From positions 226,858-290,857 of the forward strand of contig JAJTXY010000004.1 of the NCBI GenBank assembly GCA_021463865.1: a DNA stretch of 64,000 nucleotides, given 5' to 3'. The DNA is from Anaerolineae bacterium (lineage in GTDB: Bacteria > Chloroflexota > Anaerolineae > Aggregatilineales > J027). This document shows, piece after piece, positions 36,344 through 59,661 of this stretch. The notes below the pieces were generated by a model. That model saw only the letters and a list, made by a program, of their open reading frames with translations, had not been told where the DNA came from and searched no databases. A program made the translations under genes and the position numbers. The stretch's first letter is position 1. The number at the start of each line of letters is the position of its first letter.

Positions 36344-36388
36344 CAATGGTAGTACCCCATTTTGCTATACACAGCGGGATTTAGTGCG

Positions 36389-39263: not shown

Positions 39264-39264
39264 C

Positions 39265-40536: not shown

Positions 40537-40548
40537 GAATCTCAAATC

Positions 40549-41490: not shown

Positions 41491-44424
41491 TTGAACGAAG
41501 AAATTAAAGCCACAACTTCCGACGCATGGGAATTATTCCTGCTCCGCCTGCGTTATAAAGAAGGTCGCCTGCTGACCGTCAGTGGCAATCAACCGCTGCT
41601 GCTGGATGACAAAGATTCGGTCTGGTTGGTCTATTCTGGCTTGGTGGACGTGTTTGCAGTTAAGATTAAAAATGGCGAGGCCGTGGGTGCGCGTGCCCAT
41701 CTCTTTCGCGGTGAAACAGGTCATTTGCTTCTTGGCATGGATTTAGCGGGCCGCAGTTTGGGCTTATTGGCGAACAACGCCCCCGGTACACAATTGCTGA
41801 AAATGCGTCAATCGCGTCTAAAAGAACTGGCCCAAGAACCGGAATATGCCGGGATTATCGCGGGGCTGCTCGAAAAATGGGCGGCAGGGCTTTCGGCGGG
41901 GATTGCACGCGGCATCGGGCCAAAAGATTACGAAGTGCTGGAGGCGGGTAAAAATAAATCGTTGAAAGCCACCCAGACGGCTCGGCCCAAACGTGGCTTG
42001 GTGTGGGTGCGGCATGTCAAGGGGTCATCCCGCCTGATGACCTTGCAAGATGTCCCAATGATTCAAGGGGAAACATTTTTCCCGGTCTCGCGTGAAACAT
42101 GGCTCACTGCCCTTGATGAAGTGACTCTTGCCACCCTCAACACCGAGGGAGTCATTGCGCGGGATAAAGAGTGGAACTGTGTGTCGGCTTTCCATGCCAT
42201 TACCCTTGACAGTGTAGCCACCAATCTCAAACAAAATTTACATAACGAATGGGCACGGCTACAAGAGAAAAATGCCTCTGATTCGACCAAAGTGGAGCAC
42301 GCCTTTTCGCAGTTAGCGGCGACATGGGGTACAGCCGATCTGATCGCCTATACCAGTCTGGACAATCGTGACCCTGTTCTGGCAGCCTGTCAACTGCTCG
42401 GCAACATTCAGCAAATTCCCATTCGTACCCAACCCGCTACTGACCGCAAATACAGCCACAGCCAGCAGGTCGAACGCATTGCACAGGCGTCACGGGTACG
42501 TACCCGCAAGGTCGTTTTGCAGGGCGAATGGTGGAATAATGACAGCGGCCCGATGGTGGCGTTTGTGGAAGAAAGCAAGAAGCCCGTTGTACTTGTGTTC
42601 GAAGGGTTAGGCTATCAACTTCATGACCCTTTTGAAAAAAACGCCGTCGCGGTGAATGCCGAACTCGCTACCCAATTAGAACCTTTCGCCTTTGCCTTCT
42701 ATCGCCCTCTGCCCGCCCGTGAATTGAATGGGCTTGATTTACTGCGGTTCGGGATGCGCGGCGCAAAAAATGACCTACTTATGATGCTGTTGATGGGGAT
42801 TGCCGGTGGCATCCTCAGCATGGTCACACCCATTTTTATCGGCATCCTATTTGACACGACCATCCCGCGTGGCAATCGTTCAGATTTGTTGATTATCGGG
42901 ATATTTTTGCTGGCGACGGCCTTTGCTTCGGCGCTGTTTCAGGTCACGCGCAGCATTGCCCTGCTACGGATTAGTGGCAAATTGGATAGTTCGATTCAGG
43001 CCGCCATTTGGGATCGGGTGCTGGCCCTACCCGCCTCGTTTTTCCGCAGCTATTCGGCAGGCGATCTCAGCAGCCGCGCGATGGGTATTGACCTCATCCG
43101 ACGCACCCTTTCCGGTACGATTACGCTGTCCCTATTTACAGGTATCTTCTCGATTTTCAGCTTTGGCCTGCTGTTTTATTACGATGTCAGCCTCGCTTTG
43201 ATTGCCTCAGGGCTAGTGACATTCGCGTTTATCGTGACGACCATCTCCGGCTTTCTGCAATTACGCTATCAACGGCGCATCACCAACATTCAGGGGCGGA
43301 TTTCCAGCCGCGTCCTGCAATTCATCAACGGCGTTTCCAAGTTCCGCATCGCTGGGGCGGAAAATCGGGCCTTTTCAATTTGGGCGGGGGAATTTGCCGA
43401 ACAAAAACGCTTGGCCTATCGCGCCCGTATGGTCGAAAATCGGCTGACCGTATTTAATGCCATTTTCCCGGTCTTGGCCTTAATAGTTATCTTTGGGGTA
43501 GTCGCCAACCGCGATGCCAGTGCCCTAACGACGGGCACATTTTTGGCCTTCTATATCGCCTTTACCCAATTTTTGACCGCCAGTCTTGACCTCAGCCGCA
43601 CATTGGTTTCGGCGTTGAGTGTGGTGCCTGTATATGAACGGGCCAAGCCGATTCTGCACGCCCTCCCCGAAGCCGACGATGCGAAGTCTGACCCCGGCGA
43701 ATTGACCGGGAATATCGAAGTCAGCAGCTTGTCCTTCCGCTATCGGGGCGATGGCCCACTGATTTTGAAAAATATCTCGTTGACGATTAATCGCGGGGAG
43801 TTTGTGGCACTGGTTGGCGCATCGGGGTGTGGCAAATCCACCTTGATGCGTTTGCTGCTTGGTTTTGAAAAACCCGAATCCGGTGCGATTTTCTTCGATG
43901 GGCAAGATTTAGCCGAACTCGATTTACGGGCGGTGCGGCGTCAGATGGGGGTCGTATTGCAAAACAGCCGACTGATGTCCGGCGATATTTACACCAACAT
44001 CATCGGGGCCAGCCTGCTCACCATTGATGATGCGTGGGAGGCGGCACGGCAGGCGGGTATTGAAGATGATATTAAAGCCATGCCGATGGGGATGCACACC
44101 GTCGTCAGCGAAGGCGGCAGCACCCTCTCCGGTGGACAACGCCAACGCCTGTTGATTGCCCGCGCCCTCGTCAACAAGCCGCGTATCATCTTTTTTGATG
44201 AGGCCACCAGCGCCCTCGACAATCGCACACAGGCCACCGTCAGCCAGAGCCTTGATAATCTGGACGTGACCCGCATCGTGATTGCCCACCGCCTCAGCAC
44301 GATTCAAAATGCAGATCGGATTATCGTGATGGACGCGGGGCAAATTGTGCAGGTGGGGACGTATCAGGAGTTGATTAACCAGCGTGGCCTGTTTTCCCAA
44401 CTCGCCAAACGTCAATTTGCGTAG
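41491..44424 (+). CDS. NHLM-type ABC transporter, second subunit
   Basis: 977 aa. The N-terminal 400 residues lack a C39 peptidase and include a cNMP-binding-like beta region (LLLDDKDSVWLVYSGLVDVF) and a charged regulatory part, as in the second NHLM transporter. Membrane domain about 420-700, then ATPase with Walker A GASGCGKST (776-784), LSGGQRQR and [10 protein letters not shown]. It probably forms a heterodimer or works with the PCAT gene for export. TTG start with GGGGAGA. Ends 8 bases before lanM. Confidence 0.9.
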   Translation: MNEEIKATTSDAWELFLLRLRYKEGRLLTVSGNQPLLLDDKDSVWLVYSGLVDVFAVKIKNGEAVGARAHLFRGETGHLLLGMDLAGRSLGLLANNAPGTQLLKMRQSRLKELAQEPEYAGIIAGLLEKWAAGLSAGIARGIGPKDYEVLEAGKNKSLKATQTARPKRGLVWVRHVKGSSRLMTLQDVPMIQGETFFPVSRETWLTALDEVTLATLNTEGVIARDKEWNCVSAFHAITLDSVATNLKQNLHNEWARLQEKNASDSTKVEHAFSQLAATWGTADLIAYTSLDNRDPVLAACQLLGNIQQIPIRTQPATDRKYSHSQQVERIAQASRVRTRKVVLQGEWWNNDSGPMVAFVEESKKPVVLVFEGLGYQLHDPFEKNAVAVNAELATQLEPFAFAFYRPLPARELNGLDLLRFGMRGAKNDLLMMLLMGIAGGILSMVTPIFIGILFDTTIPRGNRSDLLIIGIFLLATAFASALFQVTRSIALLRISGKLDSSIQAAIWDRVLALPASFFRSYSAGDLSSRAMGIDLIRRTLSGTITLSLFTGIFSIFSFGLLFYYDVSLALIASGLVTFAFIVTTISGFLQLRYQRRITNIQGRISSRVLQFINGVSKFRIAGAENRAFSIWAGEFAEQKRLAYRARMVENRLTVFNAIFPVLALIVIFGVVANRDASALTTGTFLAFYIAFTQFLTASLDLSRTLVSALSVVPVYERAKPILHALPEADDAKSDPGELTGNIEVSSLSFRYRGDGPLILKNISLTINRGEFVALVGASGCGKSTLMRLLLGFEKPESGAIFFDGQDLAELDLRAVRRQMGVVLQNSRLMSGDIYTNIIGASLLTIDDAWEAARQAGIEDDIKAMPMGMHTVVSEGGSTLSGGQRQRLLIARALVNKPRIIFFDEATSALDNRTQATVSQSLDNLDVTRIVIAHRLSTIQNADRIIVMDAGQIVQVGTYQELINQRGLFSQLAKRQFA

Positions 44425-44432
44425 GCGGCCCT

Positions 44433-46964
44433 ATGTCGGCGGCGGACAATTATCGAGATACGCTGATTACCATTGTGGAAAAATCAGCGACCCTTGCGGA
44501 ACGACTCAGCGGCGAATTTGTGCCGATCAACGACCCCACCGAAGCCGAAATTATTGAGACCCGCCTAAAAACATGGATGCAGACGGCGGCACAAGGCGAC
44601 CCGGAACGTTTTCGTAAGCGACTAGAATGGGATGGCCTGACACTAGAACAGGTCAAACCGTTGCTGGGGTCGGTGCGACGACGTGATCCCAATGCTCCCC
44701 TGCCCCTCTGGGCTGAATTACTAGAAACTGTATTTCAAACTACTCAGACATCTACCCTTGAAGAAACAAAAATATATTTTGGGCATCAAGTAGCCATAGA
44801 ATTTGAGGAAATCTTATTTCCATTCATCGTCGTTGCAATGAAGGATATATCAGCTAAAAGAGCGACAATTGAGCGATTTGACCTTCAGTTCTCTCCGTCG
44901 TATTCAAACCTTGCGCTAAGTCTACTTCAAACCCTATCGTCAATATCAGCGCGAGGATTGATGGTAGCCTTCAAAACCTTCCAAACAATAGAACATAGGG
45001 ATTCACCTTTCGTTAAAACTAACGAAGCATCTGAGGAAAATTATCTCGCTTTTGTCCAATCAATGCTAAAGGGTGAGTTTGAATCTTTCTGTGCTCATTA
45101 TTCGGTTTTAGCAAGGTTATTGGCAACCACCACGTTATTTTGGATTGAAGCCGTTTGGGAAATGCTCTTACGTTTATTGGATGATGGCAAAACCCTTGAT
45201 GAGATTTTTAAATTCGTGATAGTAGGGAACTATCTTTTTATTGAGCAACTTCAATCAGGTCTTTCGGATTTTCACCATGATGGAAGAACTGTGATGCGAA
45301 TAAGATTCCCTGCCCAAGAGATTATTTATAAACCACGTCCTCTTGAGCTAGATGTTGCTTTCGCCAAGTTACAGGAATGGTTTAACATATGGTCAAATCC
45401 CCTATCGCCACTCAAAACCTTAAAATTCATAGAAATGGATTCCTATGGGTGGGTCGAACGATTATTTCCTCTTAAATATAACCACAGAAAAATACTAGAG
45501 GTTTCTTTCAGGCAGGCAGGATTCATGTTTGGATTAATACATGCCCTTGCTGCCAATGACTGTCATGCAGAAAATGTTATGAACATCACTGCATATCCCG
45601 TTCTGATTGATGCCGAAACGCTGATGCACCACCGCGTCCCCGATATTGAATACCATTTCCCAGATGCCCGCGCCGCTGCCCATGCCATCCTTGAAAACTC
45701 TGTATTACGAACGCAATTTCTGCCCAAATGGGAATTAGGTGCAAATGGGCAGTTCGTGGATATGAGTGCGCTCGGTAATGAAGCTACGTCCCCTAAAGAC
45801 TATGAAGCCGAAATCATCAACGGCTTCACCGAAATGTACCATTTTTTGATGGCCCATCGGGAAGAATTATTAGCTGAGGGTAGCCCACTGGAAGGGTTCA
45901 AAAATCAGCGGGTGCGCTATGTGTTCCGACCTACGCAGACCTATCAAACCGTGTTGCAGCACACCCTCCAACCGCGCTATTTACATGAGGGCATTGATCG
46001 CAGTATCCAAATTGAATCGCTGAATCGGGTGCTGCTGGCATGGGATGAAAAACCCGTTTTTTGGGACATCCACAAAGGCGAGGCACAGGCGATGGAACAG
46101 ATGGATGTGCCGCTGCTGACCTACAATTCCAGCGACACCAGCCTGCACATTGGCGACATCACCATCGAAAATGTCTTTGACCGTCCAGCCTACACCCTCG
46201 TGATTGAACGACTCAATTCTATGAGCGAGGATGATTTACAACAGCAAATTGGGTTTATTCGAGGGTCACTGTTTTGTCGTATTGCCCATGAATTACCTGA
46301 TACAGAGGATGAGATACCCGCAGTTTTGCAGAACGCCACCTCCCTCCCCCGTGAATTATTGATGAGTGAGGCGGGTCAAATTGCCGATGAGTTACAGGCA
46401 CGGGCGATTTGGGGGGAGGATGGTAGCGCGACATGGATAACGTTGACGTATCACTTTGCCGCCAATCGGTATCAGTTCGGGCAAATCAGTGATGGCCTCT
46501 ATGATGGGGCGTGTGGAGTCGCATTTTTCCTCGCAGCCCTGCATCGTGTTGTGGGTTGGCCGGGGGCGCGAGAATTAGCCCTTGCTGCCATCAAACCTTT
46601 GCAAAATCGGCTGTACCATCCGGTGTTGAGTCAGCGACTGGCACGAAATTTGGGGGTCAATGGGCCGAGTGGTCTCAAATCCATCACCTATGCCCTGCGT
46701 CATATCAGAGAATGGCTGGATGAACCGCGTTTATTAGAGGATGTGCGGCGAGTGGAATCGCTCATCAGCCCTGAACGGGATTTAACAGAACAACAAGCGA
46801 GGCGGATTCCCGAAAATGTGTTTACCCAATCCACCGAACGCTGGCGAATCGAAAACCACTTGCCAGAGGGTGTGCAATTATGGGGATTGTATGGGGGTCG
46901 CGCCGGGGTCGGTTACGAACTCCTAAAAATGCTCGATACCCGCCTGCCTTCAATTCCTTTCTAG
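44433..46964 (+). CDS. LanM-type synthetase with intact dehydratase and deleted cyclase core
   Basis: 843 aa (LanM enzymes usually exceed 950). The dehydratase phosphorylates Ser/Thr and eliminates phosphate to Dha/Dhb. Its residues are kept: D279 and H281 (SDFHHDGR), the Lys of YKPR, D376, H378 and N381 (NDCHAEN), D393 and E395 (LIDAETL), R495 and T501 (VRYVFRPT). The LanC part begins normally (GLYDGACGVAFFLAALH, about 692) and its second repeat is present, but after LISPERDLTEQQ (about 785) the sequence jumps to the last helix (GLYGGRAGVGYELLKM), missing about 200 residues with the zinc Cys/Cys-His ligands. So it should dehydrate but not cyclise. Bases about 44740-45600 are A/T-richer than the rest of the gene. 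Confidence 0.88.
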   Translation: MSAADNYRDTLITIVEKSATLAERLSGEFVPINDPTEAEIIETRLKTWMQTAAQGDPERFRKRLEWDGLTLEQVKPLLGSVRRRDPNAPLPLWAELLETVFQTTQTSTLEETKIYFGHQVAIEFEEILFPFIVVAMKDISAKRATIERFDLQFSPSYSNLALSLLQTLSSISARGLMVAFKTFQTIEHRDSPFVKTNEASEENYLAFVQSMLKGEFESFCAHYSVLARLLATTTLFWIEAVWEMLLRLLDDGKTLDEIFKFVIVGNYLFIEQLQSGLSDFHHDGRTVMRIRFPAQEIIYKPRPLELDVAFAKLQEWFNIWSNPLSPLKTLKFIEMDSYGWVERLFPLKYNHRKILEVSFRQAGFMFGLIHALAANDCHAENVMNITAYPVLIDAETLMHHRVPDIEYHFPDARAAAHAILENSVLRTQFLPKWELGANGQFVDMSALGNEATSPKDYEAEIINGFTEMYHFLMAHREELLAEGSPLEGFKNQRVRYVFRPTQTYQTVLQHTLQPRYLHEGIDRSIQIESLNRVLLAWDEKPVFWDIHKGEAQAMEQMDVPLLTYNSSDTSLHIGDITIENVFDRPAYTLVIERLNSMSEDDLQQQIGFIRGSLFCRIAHELPDTEDEIPAVLQNATSLPRELLMSEAGQIADELQARAIWGEDGSATWITLTYHFAANRYQFGQISDGLYDGACGVAFFLAALHRVVGWPGARELALAAIKPLQNRLYHPVLSQRLARNLGVNGPSGLKSITYALRHIREWLDEPRLLEDVRRVESLISPERDLTEQQARRIPENVFTQSTERWRIENHLPEGVQLWGLYGGRAGVGYELLKMLDTRLPSIPF

Positions 46965-47054: not shown

Positions 47055-50000
47055 ATGGATAACCTCAGCGGTCAAACGCTTAAGGGCTATGAATTAAAAG
47101 AATTGATTGGGCAAGGGGGTTTTGGGGCAGTTTATCGGGCCTTTCAAACCCTTGTAAAGCGCGAAGTGGCAGTCAAAATTATTTTGCCGCAGTATGCCAA
47201 TCACCCCGATTTTATCCGCAATTTTGAGGCCGAAGCCCAACTGATTGCCCGGCTAGAGCATCTCCATATCGTCCCGCTCTATGATTATTGGCGTGAGCCG
47301 GACGGGGCCTATCTGGTCATGCGCTGGCTGCGCGGGGGTAGTTTACAATCCTCCCTGCGTCAAGGGGCTTGGAATATTGAAAGCGCCGCCCGCCTGCTCG
47401 ATCAAATGGCTGCTGCACTGACCGTTGCCCATCGCAACAACGTCATCCACCGCGACATCAAACCGGGTAACATTCTGCTGGATCAAGATGGCAACGCTTA
47501 TCTGACTGACTTTGGTATTGCCAAAAATCTGGAATCGGGCGACGGGGCGGAGGAAAAAGGCGCAGTCGTCGGTTCACCTGCCTATATGTCGCCAGAGCAG
47601 ATTCGCAGCGAAGAAATTAGCCCACAAACCGATATTTATAGCCTCGGTGTGGTCATGTATGAGGTACTGACGGGTGAACAGCCTTATGGCCCCAACCTGA
47701 CCTCGTCCGAACTCATTTTTAAGCACCTAGGCGAACCGCTGCCAGAACTGCGTAAATTCCGCGCCGATCTCCCAGCAGGTCTAGACCTTGTAATTGAAAG
47801 GGCCACCGCCAAACGCCCCGATGAACGTTTCACCGATGCCATCGAATTTGCCAAAGAATTTCGCAAGGCCGTCAATCTGACCGCGACTTTTGGTGGATTA
47901 ACACCCTCAACGGATGTCGTCACCACCGAAACAGGCTCACCCTTGTTTACCATCAAGGGCGCAGGAACCGGTCGTATTACGATTGATGCGGAGGCACTTG
48001 GTATTGCAATGCCAGAGCCGGAAAATCCGTATAAAGGTCTGCGGGCCTTCCAAGAAGCCGACGCTGCTGATTTCTTTGGACGCAGCAAGCTGATTGAACG
48101 TCTGCAAAATCGCTTGATGGAAGATCACCCAATGGCCCGTTTCTTAGCGGTCATTGGGCCTAGCGGCAGCGGTAAATCCAGTGTAGTCAAAGCGGGTGTG
48201 CTGCCAAATTTACGTAAGGGGGCACTGTCGGGTTCTGACCGCTGGTTCTATGTCGAAATGGTGCCGGGGATTCATCCAGTAGGCAAATTGGCCCAAGCCC
48301 TGCTGAGTGTTGCCATTGATCCACCTCCCGGCCTGCCTCGCCAATTGCGGGAACATGAACGCGGTTTGGTGCAGGCGGTCAATCGCATCTTGCCGGATGA
48401 TAATTCCGAGTTGGTACTGATTATTGACCAATTTGAAGAAGTCTTTACCCAAGCCGAAGATGAGCAAGAACGCGACCATTTCTTAAAGAGCCTCCTAGCC
48501 GCTACAACTGACCCCGAAAGCCGTCTGCGGGTGATCGCCACCCTGCGAGCCGATTTCTATGACCGCCCCCTACTTTTCCCAGAATTTGGCAATCTGATGC
48601 GCGAACGTACTGAAGTCGTTCTGCCGCTAGGTGCAGCCGAGTTAGAAGAGGCGATTGTCGGGCCAGCCCATCGGGTCGGCATGACAGTTGATGAAAAACT
48701 GATTGCGGCGGTGGTCGGCGATGTCAGCGGTGAAGCAGGTGCTTTGCCCTTGCTGCAATATGCCCTAACCGAAGTCTTTGAGCGGCGCAAGGGACGTAAT
48801 CTCACCCTCGAAGCCTATCAGGACAGTGGCGGCGCATTAGGGGCGTTGGCGCGGCGGGCTGAAGATTTGTACAACGAAATGAATGCCGATCAACAGGCCA
48901 CCGTGCGTCAATTGTTCCTCCGCATGGTCACGCTCGGCGAAGGCACGGAAGATACGCGCCGTCGGGTGCGTTGGGCCGAGTTGTTCTCGGTTGCCGCCGA
49001 CCAAGACCAGATGCAAGCGGTTATGGATGCTTTCACTCGTTATCGCCTGCTCACCACTGACGCCGACCCCGCCACACGCGAACCTACCATTACCGTCGCA
49101 CATGAAGCCCTGATTCGTAAATGGGAACGGTTGCGGGGATGGCTCAATGACAGCCGCGAAGACTTGTTGTTGCAGCGCCGCTTGAGCCAAGCCACCGATG
49201 AATGGCTCAATTCCAAGCGAGATCGCAGTTTCCTTGCCAGCGGGGTACGCCTCGGTCAATTCGAGCAGTTGCTCGCAAGCGGAGATATTGCCCTTAGCCA
49301 AGAAGAACGAGAATTTGTGCAGGCCAGTGTGGTCGAACGGGAGGCACAGGCTGCCGAAGAAGAATCACGGAAAGCCAAAGAACTTGAATTAAAGCGTCGT
49401 TCGCGCAATCGTTCAATAGCCGCCGCTGTTGCCGCGGGGGTGGCGCTCATGGGGATTATCCTCACCGCCATCGCCCTCTATCAACGCGCCGAGGCACAGG
49501 AAGCACGCTCCGACGCTGAAGATAACGCCGCCACTGCGACCATTGCTCAGGGGCAAGCCGAATATAATGCGGCAACGGCAGTCGTCGCGCAGGGGCAAGC
49601 CGAAGCCAGTGAACAAGAGGCTCGCAGCCTTTCCTTAGCCTATTATTCACAGCAAGCCCTCCAAGAAAACGCGGTCAATACGGCGATTGCACTGGGAATG
49701 GAAGCTGTGGCTATCCCCTCCCCCAATGCCCTTGCCGAAAATGCCTTGTTTAATGCGGCTGTCACGCCCGGTACACGCCATGTATTAACAGAAACGGACG
49801 TGACATTGGCAACCGCTATCAGCGCCGATGGTCTGTATGGCCTCTCTTCATCAGGTAATCCATTTGGTGAAGCCGCAGATACCAGTGTCAAATATTGGGA
49901 TTTAGAGACTGGACAGGTGATCCACACCCTCACAGGTCATGTTGCCGCAGTTTGGGACGTCGCTTTTAGTCCCGATGGAACACAGGCCCTTTCGTGTGAT

Positions 50001-51803
50001 GCGGACGGCGTTATCATCCTTTGGAATCTAGTGGATGGCACGGAGGTTAAACGTTTCCAAGCAGGCGTAAAATGGGTATTGACCGTTACGTTCACACCCG
50101 ATGGCAAAGGTTTTGTGTCGGGTGGTGGTGATAATCTCAATAATGCCGATTTTAGCCCCGATTCGACTGAACTCGCCCTGTGGGACATCGGCAGCGGCGA
50201 GATCGTTCGACGCTTTGAAGGGCATCAAAAACCGGTATGGAGTGTTGCGGTCAGTGCCGATGGTCAATCGCTCCTATCGGCTTCGGCTGATCCCTTTGGC
50301 ACAGGTGGCGCGGTGGACAACTCCGTGCGTCTATGGAACATTGAAACAGGTGAGGAGCAGCGCCAATTCACCAGCGATTTGACGGGTTTCCTCAGTGTGG
50401 TGCTCACCCCGGATGGCACTGGGGCACTGGCGGGCTTAGGCGGCGGTGATCCAGTCGTCGTGTACTATAATCTTGCCGATGGCACAGAACGCCGATTTGA
50501 ACAGGCCCATACCGATGCGATATGGGCAGTAAGTATAACCGGGGATGGACACACGGCCCTATCTGGTGGTGGGGATAACCTGATGATTCTTTGGAATATC
50601 GAGACAGGCAAACCCATTCGTACCTTCATCGGACATGGTTCAGCCGTTTTGGGGGCCACCATCAGCCCTGATGGCCGTACCGGATTTTCCGCCGGGTCAT
50701 TTGATACTACGTTACGGATTTGGGACTTGGTCAACGGGGCTGAAATTCAGCAAAATAGCATTGGGCAGACAGCCCCACCCACCGTATTCACCCTAGATCA
50801 GTCGCAGACCCAAGCCCTATTAGGTACTTCAGATGGCAGTGTGGTGCAGTGGGATACTACCGAAAACCGCCTCATCTATTCTTTGGCTGGGCATAAAACC
50901 GAAATCCGCTCTGTCGCCATTAGCCCTGATGGGAAATTCGGAGCAGCCGGGGCCATTAACGATACGGATGCGGGCGAAGAAAATGCCGATATTCTCGTCT
51001 GGAATTTAGAAACAGGCGAAGAGGTTTATCGGCTGGTAGGTCATACTCGTGAGGTAAACGCACTTGCCTTTAGCCCCGATGGATCGCGCCTCTACTCTGG
51101 CAGTAATGACAATGACCCAGCCAAACGAGTCCGGGTGTGGAATATGGCGACTGGTGAAGAAGAAGCCATTGATTTTGGGGAACAATCGGAAACGATTTGG
51201 AGTATCACCCTGAGTCCTGATGGAACCACCTTAGCGATTGGCAATGCAGCAGGTGAAATCAAGCTGCTTGATGCGGCCAGTGGTGAACCCCACGCTATTG
51301 CATTTAGCGAAGGGCATACCAATCTGGTCAGAAGCCTTATATTTAGTGCCAATGGAACGCAGTTGCTATCCGGCTCGGCGGACAACAACGTGATTTTGTG
51401 GGATGCGACGACGGGGGCTAAGATTCGTGAATTTCGCGGGCATACGGGTGCAGTCGAAAGCGCTGTTCTGAGTGGAGATGGCAGCTTTATGCTCTCAGCG
51501 GGTGACGATGGTACGATACGCCTCTGGAGCGTAGCCACTGGTCAACAAACCCGGCTCTACGATGGGCATGAAGGCATTGTGGCGGGCGCATATTTCATTG
51601 GCGGCAGTCAAACCTTTTTATCGGCAGGGGAAGATCAAACTATACGGCGGTGGCAGACACTTGGCACACTGGACGAACTTTTGCAATGGGTCGAGGCCAA
51701 TCGAGATGTGACCCCCCTCACCGATGAAGAACGCCAACGGTATGGCTTGCCCGTAGCAATTGCACCAGAAGACGAAGGCACAACCAGTGACACTTTGAAT
51801 TAG
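47055..51803 (+). CDS. Ser/Thr kinase - nSTAND NTPase - WD40 protein
   Basis: 1582 aa. Protein kinase (about 10-275): glycine loop GQGGFGAVYRA, K41, HRDIKPGN (D134), DFG (D152); all catalytic residues present. NTPase of the nSTAND1 class (about 322-640; PYKGLRAFQEADAADFFGR, Walker A GPSGSGKSS near 368, DQFEEVFTQ as Walker B). A membrane helix at about 785-808, then 14 WD40 units (about 905-1545) that could form two propellers. Such multidomain kinases are often signal integrators or conflict-sensing proteins. It sits between lanM and the precursor genes, so it may sense or regulate the peptide system, but this is position only. Confidence 0.9.
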   Translation: MDNLSGQTLKGYELKELIGQGGFGAVYRAFQTLVKREVAVKIILPQYANHPDFIRNFEAEAQLIARLEHLHIVPLYDYWREPDGAYLVMRWLRGGSLQSSLRQGAWNIESAARLLDQMAAALTVAHRNNVIHRDIKPGNILLDQDGNAYLTDFGIAKNLESGDGAEEKGAVVGSPAYMSPEQIRSEEISPQTDIYSLGVVMYEVLTGEQPYGPNLTSSELIFKHLGEPLPELRKFRADLPAGLDLVIERATAKRPDERFTDAIEFAKEFRKAVNLTATFGGLTPSTDVVTTETGSPLFTIKGAGTGRITIDAEALGIAMPEPENPYKGLRAFQEADAADFFGRSKLIERLQNRLMEDHPMARFLAVIGPSGSGKSSVVKAGVLPNLRKGALSGSDRWFYVEMVPGIHPVGKLAQALLSVAIDPPPGLPRQLREHERGLVQAVNRILPDDNSELVLIIDQFEEVFTQAEDEQERDHFLKSLLAATTDPESRLRVIATLRADFYDRPLLFPEFGNLMRERTEVVLPLGAAELEEAIVGPAHRVGMTVDEKLIAAVVGDVSGEAGALPLLQYALTEVFERRKGRNLTLEAYQDSGGALGALARRAEDLYNEMNADQQATVRQLFLRMVTLGEGTEDTRRRVRWAELFSVAADQDQMQAVMDAFTRYRLLTTDADPATREPTITVAHEALIRKWERLRGWLNDSREDLLLQRRLSQATDEWLNSKRDRSFLASGVRLGQFEQLLASGDIALSQEEREFVQASVVEREAQAAEEESRKAKELELKRRSRNRSIAAAVAAGVALMGIILTAIALYQRAEAQEARSDAEDNAATATIAQGQAEYNAATAVVAQGQAEASEQEARSLSLAYYSQQALQENAVNTAIALGMEAVAIPSPNALAENALFNAAVTPGTRHVLTETDVTLATAISADGLYGLSSSGNPFGEAADTSVKYWDLETGQVIHTLTGHVAAVWDVAFSPDGTQALSCDADGVIILWNLVDGTEVKRFQAGVKWVLTVTFTPDGKGFVSGGGDNLNNADFSPDSTELALWDIGSGEIVRRFEGHQKPVWSVAVSADGQSLLSASADPFGTGGAVDNSVRLWNIETGEEQRQFTSDLTGFLSVVLTPDGTGALAGLGGGDPVVVYYNLADGTERRFEQAHTDAIWAVSITGDGHTALSGGGDNLMILWNIETGKPIRTFIGHGSAVLGATISPDGRTGFSAGSFDTTLRIWDLVNGAEIQQNSIGQTAPPTVFTLDQSQTQALLGTSDGSVVQWDTTENRLIYSLAGHKTEIRSVAISPDGKFGAAGAINDTDAGEENADILVWNLETGEEVYRLVGHTREVNALAFSPDGSRLYSGSNDNDPAKRVRVWNMATGEEEAIDFGEQSETIWSITLSPDGTTLAIGNAAGEIKLLDAASGEPHAIAFSEGHTNLVRSLIFSANGTQLLSGSADNNVILWDATTGAKIREFRGHTGAVESAVLSGDGSFMLSAGDDGTIRLWSVATGQQTRLYDGHEGIVAGAYFIGGSQTFLSAGEDQTIRRWQTLGTLDELLQWVEANRDVTPLTDEERQRYGLPVAIAPEDEGTTSDTLN

Positions 51804-52131: not shown

Positions 52132-52413
52132 ATGTCTAAGCAAATTGCCCTTCAATTCTTGCAAAAAGCAGCGACCGATAAAGCCCTCCAAGAAAAAATC
52201 CGTTCGGCCTCGGTGGATGCCATGCTGAAAATTGCCAAGAGTTCAGGTTTCGACTTCAGCGCAGCCGATTACAAAGCCGCTGTATCTGCCTTCCAAGAAC
52301 TGGCCTCCGATGAACTGTCAGAAGATGTATTGGACATGATCGCGGGGGGTACTGGCTTCAGCGGTGTACGTTTGGATGACAGCGCGACAAATACGAGTGA
52401 CGCCGAGGGTTAA
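52132..52413 (+). CDS. Nif11-type RiPP precursor peptide 1
   Basis: 93 aa. The leader (1-73) has the Nif11-like features: MSKQIALQFLQKAATDKALQ, SGFDFSAADYKAAV and ELSEDVLDMIAGG ending in a double glycine (G72-G73). The C39 domain at 37 kb should cut there and free a 20-residue core beginning TGFSGVRLDD and ending SDAEG. The core has no Cys; it has five Ser/Thr, plus acidic residues, so it can be dehydrated or ester-linked but not made into lanthionine. AGGAG 10 bases before ATG. Confidence 0.87.
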   Translation: MSKQIALQFLQKAATDKALQEKIRSASVDAMLKIAKSSGFDFSAADYKAAVSAFQELASDELSEDVLDMIAGGTGFSGVRLDDSATNTSDAEG

Positions 52414-52428
52414 AAAAGCCTACCTCCA

Positions 52429-52464
52429 CTGTGGCGCAGAGACCCTTGATTGGCTGCGCCACAG
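52429..52464 (+). repeat. perfect hairpin between the two precursor genes
   Basis: CTGTGGCGCAG (52429-52439) pairs with CTGCGCCACAG (52454-52464), 14-base loop, no T run. It could mark the mRNA 3' end or protect it. Confidence 0.65.
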
Positions 52465-52649
52465 CACTATTTGGCACTAAGCCCTGTGAAACTCGTAAAG
52501 ATTTCATGAAAAATTCCTAGCTTTTATACTATACCAAGCGGAAATCGTGTATGATTCAAACAAGGTCGAATTTATTTTGAACACTCTTTCGTTTTACAAA
52601 ATGACTCAACCGTGATTTATGGAACTCTAGTTAGCAAAGGAATCCCTCT

Positions 52650-52892
52650 ATGTCCAAGACAATTGTTCTGGAATATCTGCGCAAAACCAATGGCGTAGCG
52701 ACCTTTGAAGAAATCAGCAAAACGGCGCGTATCAGCATGGCCGACTACAAAGCCGCAGTCATGGCCTTTCAAGAAGAAATTAGCCTCGCTAATGATGAAC
52801 TGCCTGAAGACCTACTCGACATGGTAGCCGGTGGTACAGGGTTCAGCCGCGTCCGTGAAGACGAGGGCGGCTATGGTGACGCCGAGGGCTAA
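52650..52892 (+). CDS. Nif11-type RiPP precursor peptide 2
   Basis: 80 aa, a shorter paralogue of precursor 1. Leader 1-62 (MSKTIVLEYLRKTNG, MADYKAAVMAFQEE, ELPEDLLDMVAGG) ends at G61-G62. The 18-residue core begins TGFSRVREDE and ends GDAEG. It shares with precursor 1 TGFSxVR at the core start and DAEG at the end, and likewise lacks Cys; only Thr1 and Ser4 are dehydratable. The leader is shortened in its first helical half. AAAGGA precedes the ATG. Confidence 0.85.
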   Translation: MSKTIVLEYLRKTNGVATFEEISKTARISMADYKAAVMAFQEEISLANDELPEDLLDMVAGGTGFSRVREDEGGYGDAEG

Positions 52893-52929
52893 TCTCGGAT
52901 CGCTTTTCAACCAAGCAGTATGAAATAAA

Positions 52930-52959
52930 AAGGGCGGCCTATCATATGGGGTCGCCCTT
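52930..52959 (-). terminator. bidirectional terminator
   Basis: AAGGGCGGCC pairs with GGTCGCCCTT. On the minus strand the right arm is followed by TTTTTATTTC, so it ends the GAF gene; on the plus strand only a short T run follows precursor 2. Confidence 0.8.
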
Positions 52960-52979
52960 ATTCATCCCGTCGAAATCCC

Positions 52980-53948: not shown

Positions 53949-55154
53949 TTAAGCCGGGGGGCGCTGCCAATAATCCGCTACTGCCGAAAAATCTTGGCTA
54001 ATCCGCTGGGCATAGCTGTTGAGCAATTCCATTACCCGATCCGCGCTTGGAGATGCAACAATCATGCCGACATGATATTTTTTGTTCAAGCGCCAGACAA
54101 CTTCAGGATCATTATAGGCCGAGGTGTCGGGATATTCTTGGCGTGCCAGCGAGATCACAATTCCGGCGTAATCTTCGCGCACTTTGGGCAATTGATAGGG
54201 CACACCGCGCAAATGGGCAATTTCCATACGTACCCACTCGACCCAAGGATTTAACCCAGTAGCGGCCTCAATCAAATCCGCGATATTCGCTCCCCCTACC
54301 CGTGCAGCAACCTCCAAGAAATAGAATTTGCCATCCTCACCTTTAATATATTCAGCATGGGCGATACCACGTTCCATACCTAAAGCCTGCAACAACTTGA
54401 TATTCAATTGACGGAGGGCCATCGCATCGGCAGAATCGCGTTCGAGAGTGCGTGTCATAAATACCCCGCCGTCATGCGAGACATTCAGCGGCGGCTTGGC
54501 ATATTTATGCACAATCGAAAACACCACATCACCATTGTTGACAATTGAATCTACATGGAATACATCCCCCGGCACAAATCGTTCAAGCAGATAGGCCGAC
54601 TGCTCATCCCCTATTGATTCCAACTGCGGCCACAACTCATCGGCGTTTTGAATCTTTTTCATGCCCACTGCCCCGGCCCATGTACGTGGCTTGAGCATCC
54701 AAGGGGCTGGTACCCGTTGGGTAAACTGATGAATCTGGTCATGGTTGAGTACCCCCACAAAATCCGGCACTGGAATGCCTGCTTCATGGGCACGGGTTCG
54801 CATCGCCAATTTATCGCGGAAAAAACGAGCCGCGCTGTGTCCCATCCCCGGCATTCGCAGGTGTTCGCGCACAATCGCCGCCATCTCCACATCATATTCA
54901 TCAAGGGGGATGATCTGGTCAATCTTGCGAGTGCGATAGAGATAACTCACCGCGTTGATAACATGCTGCATATTCGAGAGGTCGGGCATAAAATACACTT
55001 CGTCAATACTGTCACGCGGCCAATCTTCGTTTACCCATTTTTCTTTGGCGATCAAAATGACCCGGCAGCCCTGACGATGGGCCTCCCGCATGAGGTCTTT
55101 CCCCTTAAACTCACTGGCGAGACACAAAAATGTAATTTGGGGGGTCTCCGACAT
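53949..55154 (-). CDS. ATP-grasp ligase
   Basis: 401 aa. Pre-ATP-grasp Rossmann-like part (about 8-100; ITFLCLASEFKGKDLMREAH, IIPLDEYDVEMAAIV), then the ATP-grasp core (about 105-320): MLKPRTWAGAVGMKKI as the phosphate-binding loop region, YLLERFVPGDVFHVDSIV and the metal-binding strand FYFLEVAARVGGAN. This arrangement is that of carboxylate-amine ligases of the carbamoyl-phosphate/peptide ligase type; substrate unknown. Minus strand, in the same direction as the GAF gene. ATG 55154 with GGAG 8 bases upstream. Confidence 0.82.
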   Translation of the reverse strand: MSETPQITFLCLASEFKGKDLMREAHRQGCRVILIAKEKWVNEDWPRDSIDEVYFMPDLSNMQHVINAVSYLYRTRKIDQIIPLDEYDVEMAAIVREHLRMPGMGHSAARFFRDKLAMRTRAHEAGIPVPDFVGVLNHDQIHQFTQRVPAPWMLKPRTWAGAVGMKKIQNADELWPQLESIGDEQSAYLLERFVPGDVFHVDSIVNNGDVVFSIVHKYAKPPLNVSHDGGVFMTRTLERDSADAMALRQLNIKLLQALGMERGIAHAEYIKGEDGKFYFLEVAARVGGANIADLIEAATGLNPWVEWVRMEIAHLRGVPYQLPKVREDYAGIVISLARQEYPDTSAYNDPEVVWRLNKKYHVGMIVASPSADRVMELLNSYAQRISQDFSAVADYWQRPPA

Positions 55155-55271
55155 CAAGAAATCTCCTTATAATTGTTTTTCAAGCAAGTGTATCAGGAAA
55201 ATCAGCCAATAGCACTTCGCCCCAATCATCGTTAGAATGAATTCAAGTAACAGCCGTACTAGAGAAGTGAT

Positions 55272-56414
55272 ATGTTTGTGTTTTCACCCAACTACCCTTA
55301 TCAAGAACCTGATAATTATGCTTTATTGCCGATTCCTGAACGCCTGAGTGCGCCTTCAACCATTACAGGGCGAAACGTGGTCATGGCGTTTATAGATTCC
55401 GGGTTCTATCCCCATCCCGATTTGGATAATCGTATCCTAGCGCATATTGATGTCGCTACCCATCAACCTGTCGAATCCACCCAAGACGTACCCCATGACC
55501 ATATCTATAGCTGGCACGGCCAGATGACTTCAGTTGTTGCAGCAGGCAGTGGTCTGACCTCCAGAGGTAAATATCGTGGAATCGCCAGTGCTGCCAAAAC
55601 GGTACTCGTTCGCATCACCAATCGGCGGGGACAGGTTAAGGAACAGGATATTCTACGGGGTCTGGATTGGGTGATTGATAATCACCGTCGCTTCGGTATT
55701 CGGATTGTCAATGTGTCGGTTGGTGGGGATCATGAAACCAGCGACCCGCTGCACTTTTTATTCAGGGCTATTCGCAAGCTGACGGATGCCGGAATCGTGG
55801 TGGTCACAGCAGCAGGCAATTCCAGTAAACCGATTTTGCTACCCCCGGCCAGTTCGCCCGATGCCATTACCGTTGGCGGCTTTGATGACCGCAACACGCT
55901 CGATCCCTCTCGGTGGCAGGTTTATCATCACAGCTATGGCAAAACATATGACGGCCAAACAAAACCGGATGTGATTGCCCCGGCGACATGGATTGCCTCA
56001 CCCATTATGCCCGGTTCGACAATGGAAAAAGAATCGCGCTGGTTAGCCCCTCTGCTCCGTGCCCCCAGTGACGAAGCCATCCGCCAAATTTTATGGAATG
56101 GCTACGCGGATTTAGGTTTCTCGCGCAATCAAGCCGAAAAACCCGATCTTGAAGTGCTGATGGAATTACAAAAACGCCTTCATGCTCATAAAATTATTGA
56201 CGAGCATCATCAGCATGTAGACGGCACATCGGTTTCAACCGCGATTGTGTCGTCGGTGATCGCCCAGATGTTGGAGATCAACCCAAGTTTGACACCCGTG
56301 CAGGTTCGGAATATTCTCGTGTCAACGGCGACTCGTCTGGTCGGCGTCCCAACCGAACAGCAAGGCGCAGGTATTGTAAACCCAACCATAGCGATAAAAA
56401 TGGCAGCTTCTTAA
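55272..56414 (+). CDS. Leaderless S8 subtilase
   Basis: 380 aa subtilisin-type serine protease. Triad D42 (FIDSGF), H82 (YSWHGQ) and S320 (DGTSVST). Oxyanion residue Asn in AAGNSS. No signal peptide and no propeptide of the usual length, so it would be made active in the cytoplasm or be released some other way. Between the oxyanion region and Ser it has an insertion of about 50 aa (RWLAPLLRAPSDEAIRQ onwards). Such subtilases act as leader peptidases in several RiPP pathways; here this is an inference from position. Confidence 0.88.
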   Translation: MFVFSPNYPYQEPDNYALLPIPERLSAPSTITGRNVVMAFIDSGFYPHPDLDNRILAHIDVATHQPVESTQDVPHDHIYSWHGQMTSVVAAGSGLTSRGKYRGIASAAKTVLVRITNRRGQVKEQDILRGLDWVIDNHRRFGIRIVNVSVGGDHETSDPLHFLFRAIRKLTDAGIVVVTAAGNSSKPILLPPASSPDAITVGGFDDRNTLDPSRWQVYHHSYGKTYDGQTKPDVIAPATWIASPIMPGSTMEKESRWLAPLLRAPSDEAIRQILWNGYADLGFSRNQAEKPDLEVLMELQKRLHAHKIIDEHHQHVDGTSVSTAIVSSVIAQMLEINPSLTPVQVRNILVSTATRLVGVPTEQQGAGIVNPTIAIKMAAS

Positions 56415-56440
56415 TCAAAATTGCTTTAGGAAAAAATGTG

Positions 56441-57160
56441 ATGAATCGTGAATATCATGCGTGGCACAGTCCCTCCCTGAATCGCAAAATGGAACTATTG
56501 GTGTTCGGACATGCCGGGGCCAAAGTCCTGATTTTTCCGACCTCGCAGGGAAAATTTTATGAGTGGGAAGACCGGGGGATGATGTGGATACTACACGAAC
56601 ATCTTGAACGTGGGTGGTTGCAATGTTATTGTGTGGACAGCGTGGATGCTGAAAGCTGGTATGCAAAATGGGCACACCCCGGCGGACGCGCCTATCGCCA
56701 TTCGCAATATGTGGGGTATCTGTACAACGAAGTTCTACCTTTTATGAATTGGAAAAACCCGACCCCATATACCATTACAATGGGAGCAAGTTTTGGTGCG
56801 TTTCATGCTATGTCGTTTGGCCTTAAACATCCTTGGGCCATCAATCGTGTCTTGGCAATGAGTGGCCTGTATGATATTCGCGGTTTTACCGATGGCTACA
56901 GTGATGATAACGTCTATTTCAACAACCCGATGCAGTTCATTGCTAACGAACACGATGATGGACGGCTTGCTCAGTTACGCCAGATGGATATTATTATGGC
57001 AACAGGACGTGATGACCGCTTGATAGGCAGCGCTCGACGACTATCGGCTTTGTTGTGGGAAAAAGGCATTGGCAATGCCCTGCGCGAGTGGGATGGCTGG
57101 TCACACGACTGGCCGTACTGGCAAAAAATGATGTTGATGTATATCGGCGGACATGATTAA
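56441..57160 (+). CDS. Esterase-like alpha/beta hydrolase
   Basis: 239 aa, esterase D/tributyrin type. Nucleophile Ser in GASFGAFH (about residue 117), an acid in GRDDRL and a His in WSHDWPYW near the end, all in the expected order. No signal peptide. It lies between the subtilase and an ATP-grasp gene with gaps of 26 and 34 bases, so a joint operon is likely. Start ATG 56441 with TAGGA; the in-frame GTG just before it is less well placed. A role in hydrolysing an ester or activated peptide is possible. Confidence 0.82.
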   Translation: MNREYHAWHSPSLNRKMELLVFGHAGAKVLIFPTSQGKFYEWEDRGMMWILHEHLERGWLQCYCVDSVDAESWYAKWAHPGGRAYRHSQYVGYLYNEVLPFMNWKNPTPYTITMGASFGAFHAMSFGLKHPWAINRVLAMSGLYDIRGFTDGYSDDNVYFNNPMQFIANEHDDGRLAQLRQMDIIMATGRDDRLIGSARRLSALLWEKGIGNALREWDGWSHDWPYWQKMMLMYIGGHD

Positions 57161-57194
57161 AGAATAATACCATTTTTTGATAAGGAGCGTTTTT

Positions 57195-58220
57195 ATGGCA
57201 TCCAAAGAACCCCTGCGCATTGGTTTGTTTGTGGGACGCGAATGGTCATGGCCGCCAGCATTTATTGAAGAAGTCAACCGACGCAATGAAGGGGTTATTG
57301 CCGAATATGTGAAGGTCGGGGGCACACAAATGAACGAACCCTGCCCCTACCGCGTCATTATAGATCGTATCTCGCATGAAGTCCCCTACTATCGCTCCTA
57401 TCTCAAAAACGCCGCATTGCAAGGTGTCAAGGTCATCAATGACCCCTTTATGTGGACAGCCGACGATAAGTTTTTTGGCGCATCCCTCGCTGAACAATTA
57501 GGCGTAAAATCCCCCAAAACAATTGTCCTGCCCAATCGAGATTATGTCCCCGGCATTGTCAAAACCGAGAGCTTGCGAAATCTAGTTTATCCAATGGATT
57601 GGCAGGCGATTGTCAATTATGTTGGGATGCCCTGCGTGCTAAAAGATGCACATGGCGGTGGCTGGCGGGACGTTTATATCGTCAACAGCATGGATGATCT
57701 CATCTTCCGCTATAACGGCAGCGCTCTGCTGACTATGATTGTGCAGGAATTTATCGAGTGGGATAACTATGCCCGTTTGATGTGCTTGGGCCAAAATGAC
57801 ATCTATGTGATGAAATATGACCCCAAGAGCCGCCGTTATCATGAGGAGCACGATTTTTCACCCGAACTTTATAGTCGCATGGTAGAGGACGCGACCAAAC
57901 TCGTGCGTGCCTTTGGCTACGACATGAACACGGTTGAGTTTGCCATTCGAGACGGCGTGCCCTACGCCATAGATTTTATGAACCCCGCCCCCGATATGGA
58001 TGTCAATTCATTGGGTCGCAAGCATTTTGATTGGATGGTCACGCATATGGCCGATATGACCATCCGACTGGCAAAATCTAACGAAGGCACCGCTGATCGT
58101 TACGAATGGGCGCGTGTTGTGGCAGAGACCCAATCTCCCAAAGTGGGTAAGGCCGTCGCCCCCAAGACGAAGGCTGTTGCTCCAAAAACCAAACCCACTA
58201 AGCCCAAATCCTCTTCCTAA
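57195..58220 (+). CDS. ATP-grasp ligase with Lys/Pro-rich tail
   Basis: 341 aa. N-terminal Rossmann-like domain (LRIGLFVGREWSWPPAF), then an ATP-grasp core (about 95-300): MPCVLKDAHGGGWRDVYIV, LTMIVQEFIEWDNYARLM, DMNTVEFAIRDGVPYAIDFM. Size like the RimK/microviridin-ligase group, but the sequence is not clearly theirs. The last 25 residues are a disordered basic tail with a repeated AVAPKTK, added to the fold. AAGGAG lies 7 bases before ATG. Substrate unknown. Confidence 0.82.
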   Translation: MASKEPLRIGLFVGREWSWPPAFIEEVNRRNEGVIAEYVKVGGTQMNEPCPYRVIIDRISHEVPYYRSYLKNAALQGVKVINDPFMWTADDKFFGASLAEQLGVKSPKTIVLPNRDYVPGIVKTESLRNLVYPMDWQAIVNYVGMPCVLKDAHGGGWRDVYIVNSMDDLIFRYNGSALLTMIVQEFIEWDNYARLMCLGQNDIYVMKYDPKSRRYHEEHDFSPELYSRMVEDATKLVRAFGYDMNTVEFAIRDGVPYAIDFMNPAPDMDVNSLGRKHFDWMVTHMADMTIRLAKSNEGTADRYEWARVVAETQSPKVGKAVAPKTKAVAPKTKPTKPKSSS

Positions 58221-58229
58221 GCATTAAAG

Positions 58230-58256
58230 GGGCAGGCTAATCACCTGCCCTTCTTT
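58230..58256 (+). terminator. rho-independent terminator
   Basis: GGGCAGG (58230-58236) pairs with CCTGCCC (58244-58250), then TTCTTT. Confidence 0.75.
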
Positions 58257-58296
58257 CTAAAGGCGCTCAATTATATTTATTGGAAAGGTAATTCTT

Positions 58297-59661
58297 ATGT
58301 TGGTTACAAAAGAAGCCGTTGAACTCTATCATAGTTTATTGAATGACCAATTAGTCGCCGACTCTTTTGAAAAGTTTAATCACAGCCTCCGCGCCCGACG
58401 CCTCTATTTTGGAGATCGCCCTCTCTGTACTGTTCTCCGTCCTCAGTTTTATTCCAAAGAACTTTGGGCCTATATCGCACACGAAACGGAAACCATGCTG
58501 CGTGCCTTCCGGAAAGCCCATGCCGCTTGTATGACCAATACGAATCTCCGTGCCCAACTTGACCTTGAGGCCTATGAAGAGGAACTGTTTAGCCTTGACA
58601 TTGGCTATGAAGCCCCTTGGACAACCTCCCGATTGGACTCCTTTTTCACACGTGAGGTCGGCCAACCACCCAGCCTGCGTTTTGTTGAATATAATGCGGA
58701 AACGCCAGCAGGCATGAGTTATGCCGATGAACTTGCCAGTGCCTTTATGGAACTAGAGCCGATTAAGCAATTTCAGCAGCATTACCACATCCATGCCATG
58801 CCTGTTCAGCCGGATTTGTTAGGCGCGTTGCAAGATGTGTGGCGGGAATGGGGTGGCACGGGTACGCCCCAAATCTGCATTGTAGATTGGCAAGACCTCC
58901 CCACCCATAATGAGCATGAAATCTGCCGTGATTATTTCATCGCCAACGGCTGTCCTACTATTTTGGCAGACCCGCAGGAATTGGAATATCGCAATGGACA
59001 CCTATGGGTCAAAGACTTTCGCGTAGATTTCATCTATAAGCGTGTACTGTCCTCCGAACTGATTAACAAACTGGGGGTGAATAACGTCATCGTTCGTGCT
59101 ATCAAAGATCATGCCGTCTGTATGAGCAATGCCTTTAGCGCCAAACTCATGGCAAAAAAGGCCAGTTTTGCTCTCCTAAGTGACGAGCAAAATCACTATC
59201 TCTTTACCTCGGATGAAATCGGCGCGATTGAAGCCCATATTCCTTGGACCCGCCGCGTGAGTGAACGCCATACTTATTTTCATGGGCAGACCATTGATCT
59301 TGTCCCCTTTATCGCCGATAACCGCGAAAATTTGGTATTGAAGCCGAACGACGAGTATGGAGGATTGGGGGTAGTGCTGGGATGGGAGGCCGATTCTGAG
59401 GCATGGAACGCGACCCTTCAGAAAGCCTTGCATAATCCCTATGTTGTTCAAGAACGGGTTGCGATTGGACAGGGCGATTACCCTTATTTGGAAGATGGCA
59501 AGCTGGCTATCCGTCAGCGTATGGTGGATACCGATCCCTATATCTTTCATGGGAAGCGTGTCAATGGCTGTCTCACGCGCATTTCCTCGCAATCGCTCTT
59601 GAATGTAACAGCGGGGGGTGGCTCGGTCATCCCGACCTTTATCATCGAAAAGCAAAACTGA
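58297..59661 (+). CDS. Circularly permuted ATP-grasp-like protein
   Basis: 454 aa. Motifs of the glutathionylspermidine-synthase-like / circularly permuted ATP-grasp group: RFVEYNAETPAGMSY, VDFIYKRVL, NLVLKPNDEYGGLGVVLGW, YVVQERV, and the end TRISSQSLLNVTAGGGSVIP. Such enzymes form amide bonds, often with an amine. The gene follows the ATP-grasp gene across a terminator, so it may have its own promoter. Substrate unknown; the pairing of an esterase and two ligases suggests a dedicated pathway. Confidence 0.8.
   Translation: MLVTKEAVELYHSLLNDQLVADSFEKFNHSLRARRLYFGDRPLCTVLRPQFYSKELWAYIAHETETMLRAFRKAHAACMTNTNLRAQLDLEAYEEELFSLDIGYEAPWTTSRLDSFFTREVGQPPSLRFVEYNAETPAGMSYADELASAFMELEPIKQFQQHYHIHAMPVQPDLLGALQDVWREWGGTGTPQICIVDWQDLPTHNEHEICRDYFIANGCPTILADPQELEYRNGHLWVKDFRVDFIYKRVLSSELINKLGVNNVIVRAIKDHAVCMSNAFSAKLMAKKASFALLSDEQNHYLFTSDEIGAIEAHIPWTRRVSERHTYFHGQTIDLVPFIADNRENLVLKPNDEYGGLGVVLGWEADSEAWNATLQKALHNPYVVQERVAIGQGDYPYLEDGKLAIRQRMVDTDPYIFHGKRVNGCLTRISSQSLLNVTAGGGSVIPTFIIEKQN

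Follow-up and report, generated by a model that had tools for sequence, protein, structure and literature searches.

The gene cluster and its precursors

The window, a stretch of 64,000 nucleotides from an Anaerolineae genome of the phylum Chloroflexota, carries on a single strand a set of genes resembling those of class II lanthipeptides. The features of this cluster are listed below.

36362–36997, + strand: HlyD-like secretion adaptor of the NHLP export system (TIGR03794, 182.8 bits, cut-off 156.2); the other four genomes also have it upstream of their transporters
37011–39263, + strand: NHLP ABC transporter 1 with a C39 peptidase domain, expected to cut after Gly-Gly (TIGR03796, 1142 bits, cut-off 853.3; Pfam Peptidase_C39, E 3.6e-37)
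41491–44424, + strand: NHLP ABC transporter 2, permease/ATPase (TIGR03797, 979.4 bits, cut-off 709.4)
44433–46964, + strand: LanM class II lanthipeptide synthetase, 843 aa, with the dehydratase half intact in the residues checked and the cyclase half mostly deleted (TIGR03897, 502.8 bits; Pfam DUF4135, E 6.5e-87)
46488–46964, + strand: remnant of the LanC cyclase, LanM residues 686–843 (LANC_like model positions 93–291 missing)
47055–51803, + strand: Ser/Thr protein kinase–nSTAND NTPase–WD40 protein (Pfam Pkinase, E 3e-52; nSTAND1, E 5.5e-123; WD40)
52132–52413, + strand: precursor 1, a Nif11-type leader and a Cys-free core of 20 residues at 52351–52410 (TIGR03798, 56.2 bits, cut-off 32.3); conserved in five of five genomes
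52650–52892, + strand: precursor 2, a paralogue with a shortened leader and a Cys-free core of 18 residues at 52836–52889 (58% identical overall to precursor 1); in five of five genomes
52930–52959, + strand: G+C-rich hairpin 3′ of precursor 2, a possible transcription end (RNA fold of 52915–52975, −21 kcal/mol, z −3.28)

The NHLP export set is complete, its HlyD, peptidase-ABC and ABC components all scoring above their cut-offs. The same-strand order of HlyD, C39-ABC, second ABC, LanM, kinase-nSTAND-WD40 gene and two precursors recurs, apart from insertions, in five genomes of one genus, namely, the window genome (G000), G001 (locus L021), G002 (L018), G003 (L019), and G004 (L020). The LanM, transporter, and precursor frames are open in all of them, and the kinase-nSTAND-WD40 gene, whose product perhaps serves in regulation or self-protection, always separates LanM from the precursors. 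At 39199–41457, the two transporters are interrupted by an inserted pair of genes, for a DNA methyltransferase and for a Bpu10I-like restriction endonuclease (Pfam E 1.5e-88); the window and G003 have this pair, whereas G001, G002, and G004 do not. G002 and G003 have, in addition, a gene encoding about 200 aa that follows HlyD and precedes the first transporter. As for signals around the precursors, the terminator scan listed three hairpins other than the one following precursor 2, and no signal exceeding shuffled sequences was obtained in the promoter scan.

The genes located 3′ of the precursors encode a GAF protein and, at 53949–59661, three ATP-grasp-like proteins, a subtilase, and an esterase-like protein; they are syntenic within the genus. 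No graspetide maturase family is among the matches listed for the three ATP-grasp-like proteins (NCBIfam and Pfam, E ≤ 0.01; for 53949–55157, the best 25 of 40 NCBIfam matches). The one encoded at 57177–58220 gives only a RimK match, below cut-off. Because its homologue occurs in 16 of 41 related genomes and nine of these have no LanM match, the ATP-grasp block is regarded as a separate locus and is not counted in the cluster.

Precursors 1 and 2 (93 and 80 aa) were both found as open reading frames at the positions listed, with the reading first given for them. Their leaders end in DMIAGG and DMVAGG, and the cores that follow are TGFSGVRLDDSATNTSDAEG and TGFSRVREDEGGYGDAEG, respectively. Cys is absent from the whole of both peptides, leader and core. 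Precursor 1 belongs to the Nif11 leader family; precursor 2, with its shortened leader, is matched by no model of NCBIfam or Pfam at E ≤ 0.01, but it is 58% identical to precursor 1.

The original prediction held that these are Gly-Gly-type precursors whose cores are conserved at both ends around a variable centre. The likeness of the two cores is not due to chance: when the second core was shuffled 20,000 times, no shuffle scored as high in the alignment as the actual sequence. At least six of the first seven residues were matched in 2 of 200,000 shuffles, and the ending DAEG appeared in 84 of 200,000. The pattern extends to 11 precursors in the five genomes. Thr1, Gly2, Phe, Ser4/5, Val, one middle Asp, and the final Asp-x-Glu-Gly are invariant, and the remainder of the middle varies. 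There are six distinct cores among the 11; one departs from the others by an inserted Ser and a His replacing Arg (TGSFSRVH...), another by ending in DDEG. Homologues conserved in the leader only would have spoken against the prediction, but the homologues found are conserved beyond the leader. Enzymatic recognition at the two ends, also suggested in that prediction, is possible. Thr1 and Ser4/5, already singled out at that stage, are indeed the only Ser/Thr positions common to all 11 cores, and in four genomes Thr1 and Ser4 are the sole Ser/Thr residues of the precursor 2 core. Cys is lacking in 11 of 11 precursors.

A search of the order's 154 genomes with a profile of these precursors gave 11 matches in the five genomes. 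In the remaining 149 it gave a single match, in G479 outside the genus (E 0.0026), which lies inside a frame of 831 aa and is taken as chance. Across four genomes, no two precursor 1 cores differ at more than one residue, although the genes have diverged at synonymous sites (dN of 0 to 0.022 as compared to dS of 0.26 to 1.14, over few sites). In L021, precursor 2 is present in two copies.

The LanM enzyme and its variation within the genus

The window LanM, at 843 aa, is shorter than the zinc-complete LanMs of the phylum, which mostly have about 1,070–1,170 aa. The equivalents of CylM D252, H254, K274, D347, H349, N352, D364, R506, and T512 are kept, nine of nine in all five genomes. Conversely, in an alignment with 62 other LanM ORFs, the equivalents of the CylM zinc ligands C875, C911, and H912 are deleted in five of five. 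The dehydratase residues other than K274, as well as the three zinc ligands, are named in PMC4550811. All three ligands are removed by an in-frame deletion of about 200 residues, so that only positions 4–92 and, weakly, 292–346 of the 350 positions of Pfam LANC_like are matched. The C-terminal motif GGRAGVGYELL is kept in frame, and the deletion is therefore internal and not a truncation. A sequencing artefact is unlikely, since the cyclase deletion is common to five assemblies and a second deletion, described below, to two.

The dN/dS is 0.07–0.11 for the C-terminal half of LanM and, in ten pairwise comparisons, 0.08–0.13 for the LanC stub; judged by these ratios, both are under strong purifying selection. 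The AlphaFold2 model of the window LanM, built from 38 sequences, has a mean pLDDT of 85 and a pTM of 0.84, and its best structural matches are CylM (Z 25.0, rmsd 6.7, 713 aligned) and LicM2 (Z 24.9, rmsd 5.0, 689 aligned). The model keeps strands 669–674 and 679–684, located about where CylM has a sheet that has been proposed to bind the leader (PMC4550811). Nine predicted helices follow these strands, two of them in or adjoining a low-confidence stretch at 791–802.

Variation within the genus is unevenly distributed along the enzyme. The window LanM and those of L019–L021 are 93–95% identical over residues 1–96, 37–39% over 97–395, 72–76% over 396–445, and 87–88% over 446–843. This suggests a mosaic gene, within which two different dehydratase modules have been exchanged. 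Both versions keep the catalytic residues, and neither has the cyclase. In addition, a stretch of 43 dehydratase residues near residue 449 is missing from the window LanM and its near-twin in L018, and kept in L019–L021. This gap could weaken the activity and is the main reason for caution that the sequences give. Selection between the window and L018 enzymes nevertheless looks purifying (dS 0.067, dN 0.006). As the five genomes represent one lineage, they are counted as one event.

LanM loci across the phylum

DUF4135 matches were obtained in 37 of 400 genomes sampled across the phylum, with at most four candidates scored per genome, and in 9 of the 154 genomes of the order. The 63 LanM ORFs compared here come from the window and the fetched loci and are not an exhaustive set. 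Seven LanM places of the 400-genome sample lie outside it, five of which were read separately, the others being G170:C1:2206340 and G303:C323; L033 and L034 gave no ORF, and at least five divergent LanM ORFs escaped the motif filter (L042:7195, L057:4100, L068:9184, L070:9804, and L082:6717). Precursor candidates were identified by a heuristic Gly-Gly search, an earlier and looser search having returned many chance ORFs. The search covered 4 kb downstream, extended to 6.2 kb at the five genus loci because there the precursors lie beyond the large kinase gene.

The zinc triad is complete in 45 of the 63 ORFs, substituted in five, and absent in 13; no precursor candidate lies near 26. Among the zinc-complete LanMs, 24 have a candidate nearby, and for 23 of these LanMs its core carries Cys (six of the 23 share three candidates). 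The lone Cys-free case, L059, looks like a chance ORF. Precursors with NHLP leaders beside zinc-complete LanMs (L031, L035, L037, and L038) have Cys in the core. A candidate is found near 10 of the 13 zinc-absent LanMs, Cys-free in the five genus genomes and in G347, Cys-bearing in four.

The LanM of G347 has no LanC match and adjoins an aldo/keto reductase gene and a Cys-free Nif11 precursor with the core AKGATIYISRNSVIISVW. In a tree from which six short or broken ORFs of the 63 were left out, this enzyme groups with the window clade (FastTree local support 0.89), next to zinc-complete enzymes of the CCC type (0.84). Ten of the eleven Nif11-model matches of G347 were read as ORFs (the eleventh is C1:2913246), and Cys occurs in none of the ten. 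Five Cys-free Nif11 precursors stand in tandem at L083 of this genome (7427–9557), three of them with GGINPQPL or GGLNPQPL at the border between leader and core. At L084 (7592–10231), a Cys-free Nif11 precursor adjoins a radical SAM C-methyltransferase (TIGR03975, 603 bits).

It is not the case that loss of the cyclase always goes with Cys-free cores. In another Chloroflexota genus, g95 (L040 and L098–L102), a dehydratase-only LanM of 611 or 723 aa stands beside a two-Cys candidate in six of six genomes, and no LanC match was found in three of the six. Beyond L040 and its five sister genomes, the counter-cases are L041 (an ORF of 619 aa), L064, and L068. L041 and L068 each have a further LanM that does carry a LanC domain; the L041 candidate may be a chance ORF, and L064 may be a broken reading frame. 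Substituted ligands (SYH, -YH, or AAH) occur in L042, L057, L070, L073, and L082, with Cys-bearing candidates at the first three and none at L073 and L082. The LanM of L057 is adjacent to another one whose LanC domain is full, which suggests a division of labour between the paired synthetases.

Proposed linear dehydropeptides, alternative readings, and known systems

We consider it probable that enzyme and substrate have both lost the chemistry of lanthionine formation, which leaves dehydration, chiefly at Thr1 and Ser4, and the export of linear dehydropeptides. The Nif11-type leaders would guide the precursors to LanM, where the lipid-kinase-like dehydratase domain would phosphorylate conserved Ser/Thr residues of the core, above all Thr1 and Ser4. 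Elimination of phosphate would then give Dhb and Dha. With no Cys to add and no zinc cyclase, the chain would stay linear. The C39 peptidase of the NHLP transporter would cut after Gly-Gly and export the acidic dehydropeptides. The freed N-terminal Dhb is expected to turn into a 2-oxobutyryl group, as in other lantibiotics.

The dehydration step draws support from the conservation of the dehydratase residues, which are kept although residues 97–395 are just 37–39% identical between the two versions of the enzyme. It has been reported that zinc-ligand mutants of the lacticin 481 synthetase keep dehydration, with cyclisation impaired (a study cited in PMC10301443), and that excised dehydration domains of CylM, HalM2, and NukM suffice (PMC10676384). 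In the dehydrazole enzyme, the cyclase-like domain is necessary for dehydration (PMC10676384), and the LanC stub may thus matter here. It probably survives by carrying the presumed leader-binding strands and by packing against the dehydratase.

An unlikely alternative is that the cores are exported unmodified or only phosphorylated, the LanM being a leader-binding chaperone or a dead enzyme. The cyclase is gone, the window LanM has its second gap of 43 residues in the dehydratase, and LanM-like proteins devoid of catalytic residues do exist, for example, CA_C0082 (PMC10301443). Unlike CA_C0082, however, this enzyme keeps, in five of five genomes, each of the nine residues checked for phosphorylation and elimination, even across its 37–39% identical segment, and its presumed targets Thr1 and Ser4/5 are invariant in the 11 cores.

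It is quite unlikely that dehydration is followed by ring closure of a non-thiol kind, either by addition of an amine or carboxylate to Dha/Dhb or through ester or amide links between Ser/Thr and Asp/Glu. The latter links belonged to the original prediction, and this part of it is not supported: no graspetide ligase was recognised among the matches listed, and the tested ATP-grasp gene has homologues in nine genomes that lack a LanM match. Both Ser/Thr and Asp/Glu are present in 11 of 11 cores, which is weakly specific for graspetides. The RiPP-modifying enzyme recognised beside the precursors is the LanM dehydratase, from which Ser/Thr residues are predicted to lose water with no cross-link being made. 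Forming an ester would likewise cost one water, so that mass alone is not decisive between the two. The conservation of the C-terminal Asp and Glu and of the mid-core Asp is in keeping with such rings, and class III synthetases cyclise without a zinc motif (PMC10301443). Yet most of the cyclase barrel is missing here, beyond the ligands alone, and the interval from HlyD to the precursors holds no further gene except the kinase-nSTAND-WD40 gene and the inserted restriction-modification pair. The graspetide reading was rejected on the matches listed in the family scans and on the ATP-grasp gene occurring without the cluster. The YcaO/azole reading was rejected too, as YcaO was matched in none of six genomes at E ≤ 0.001 and in 5 of 14 control genomes.

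The large cyclase deletion, the second deletion in two genomes, the mosaic N-terminal half, and the restriction-modification pair inserted between the transporter genes of two genomes could also be those of a decaying remnant of a former lanthipeptide pathway. This is very unlikely in view of the dN/dS of about 0.1 in the C-terminal half of LanM, stub included, the low dN in the precursor 1 core, the open LanM, transporter, and precursor frames of five genomes, and the extra precursor copy in L021. Most improbable is an ordinary lanthipeptide made from Cys-containing precursors elsewhere or with a cyclase in trans: the genes for prochlorosin (Nif11) precursors often lie apart from that of the LanM (PMC7268733), and in G001 a second LanM, which is zinc-complete, is accompanied by a Cys-rich precursor candidate of its own, but G000 has one Nif11-model match, the 11-precursor profile finds no further leader-related precursors in the five genomes, and no other LanC match was found in four of them (G000, G002, G003, and G004).

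If linear dehydropeptides are indeed the products, a natural lanthipeptide synthetase has been pared down to its dehydratase, with the Cys residues of its substrate lost to match. The system would then offer a clean test of whether dehydroamino acids alone can give RiPP function, and its retained LanC stub would be a natural minimal construct to ask what the dehydratase requires of the cyclase domain in order to bind the leader. Cys-free dehydropeptides would also escape mining pipelines that discard cores without Cys. Indeed, ORFs without core Cys were discarded in a large lanthipeptide survey (PMC7268733), and precursors having both Ser/Thr and Cys were chosen in an archaeal one (PMC10105419). 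A tentative and somewhat doubtful extension is that a Chloroflexota LanM clade, sister to zinc-bearing LanMs of the CCC type, has given up ring formation along with the Nif11 peptides on which it acts. Its present products would be a family of linear dehydropeptides without Cys, in which the Dha and the N-terminal Dhb (or 2-oxobutyryl) would serve as the active electrophilic groups. The parts of the system are already known; in the portions of the open-access literature consulted, no report was found of a matched loss of cyclase and core cysteines in a conserved, selected cluster.

With class II lanthipeptide systems (CylM, LicM2, and the lacticin 481 synthetase), the cluster shares the LanM family match, a lipid-kinase-like dehydratase with the nine checked catalytic residues, the Gly-Gly leader, and C39-ABC export. 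It differs by the deletion of the zinc ligands and of about 200 LanC positions, and no lanthionine can form within a core that has no Cys. The Nif11-type leader, the paralogous precursors, and the NHLP transporter set are features of Nif11-derived peptides, including prochlorosins (PMC2887384). The LanM that makes the hypervariable prochlorosins is promiscuous and accepts some Cys-free peptides among its substrates (PMC10783134, PMC11251773), whereas here every core is Cys-free and conserved and the enzyme has no cyclase.

Dehydrazoles (LanMbC and YcaO, carnazolamide) also depend on a DUF4135 dehydratase without a zinc site, which makes Dha without lanthionine; their enzymes differ in having a whole cyclase domain of class III type, in being leader-independent, in acting on Ser before azoles, and in having a YcaO partner (PMC10676384). 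The D-Unk clusters, with 47 predicted peptides, likewise combine a DUF4135 dehydratase with a non-canonical cyclase, one that lacks a known triad; the survey describing them began from the LanC domain (PMC11251773). Finally, the Clostridium proteins of the CA_C0082 type are LanM-like and have no zinc site. They are without the dehydratase residues as well, and C. acetobutylicum is said in the same source to be without all other lanthipeptide genes (PMC10301443), whereas in the cluster described here the dehydratase residues, the precursors, and the exporter are all present.
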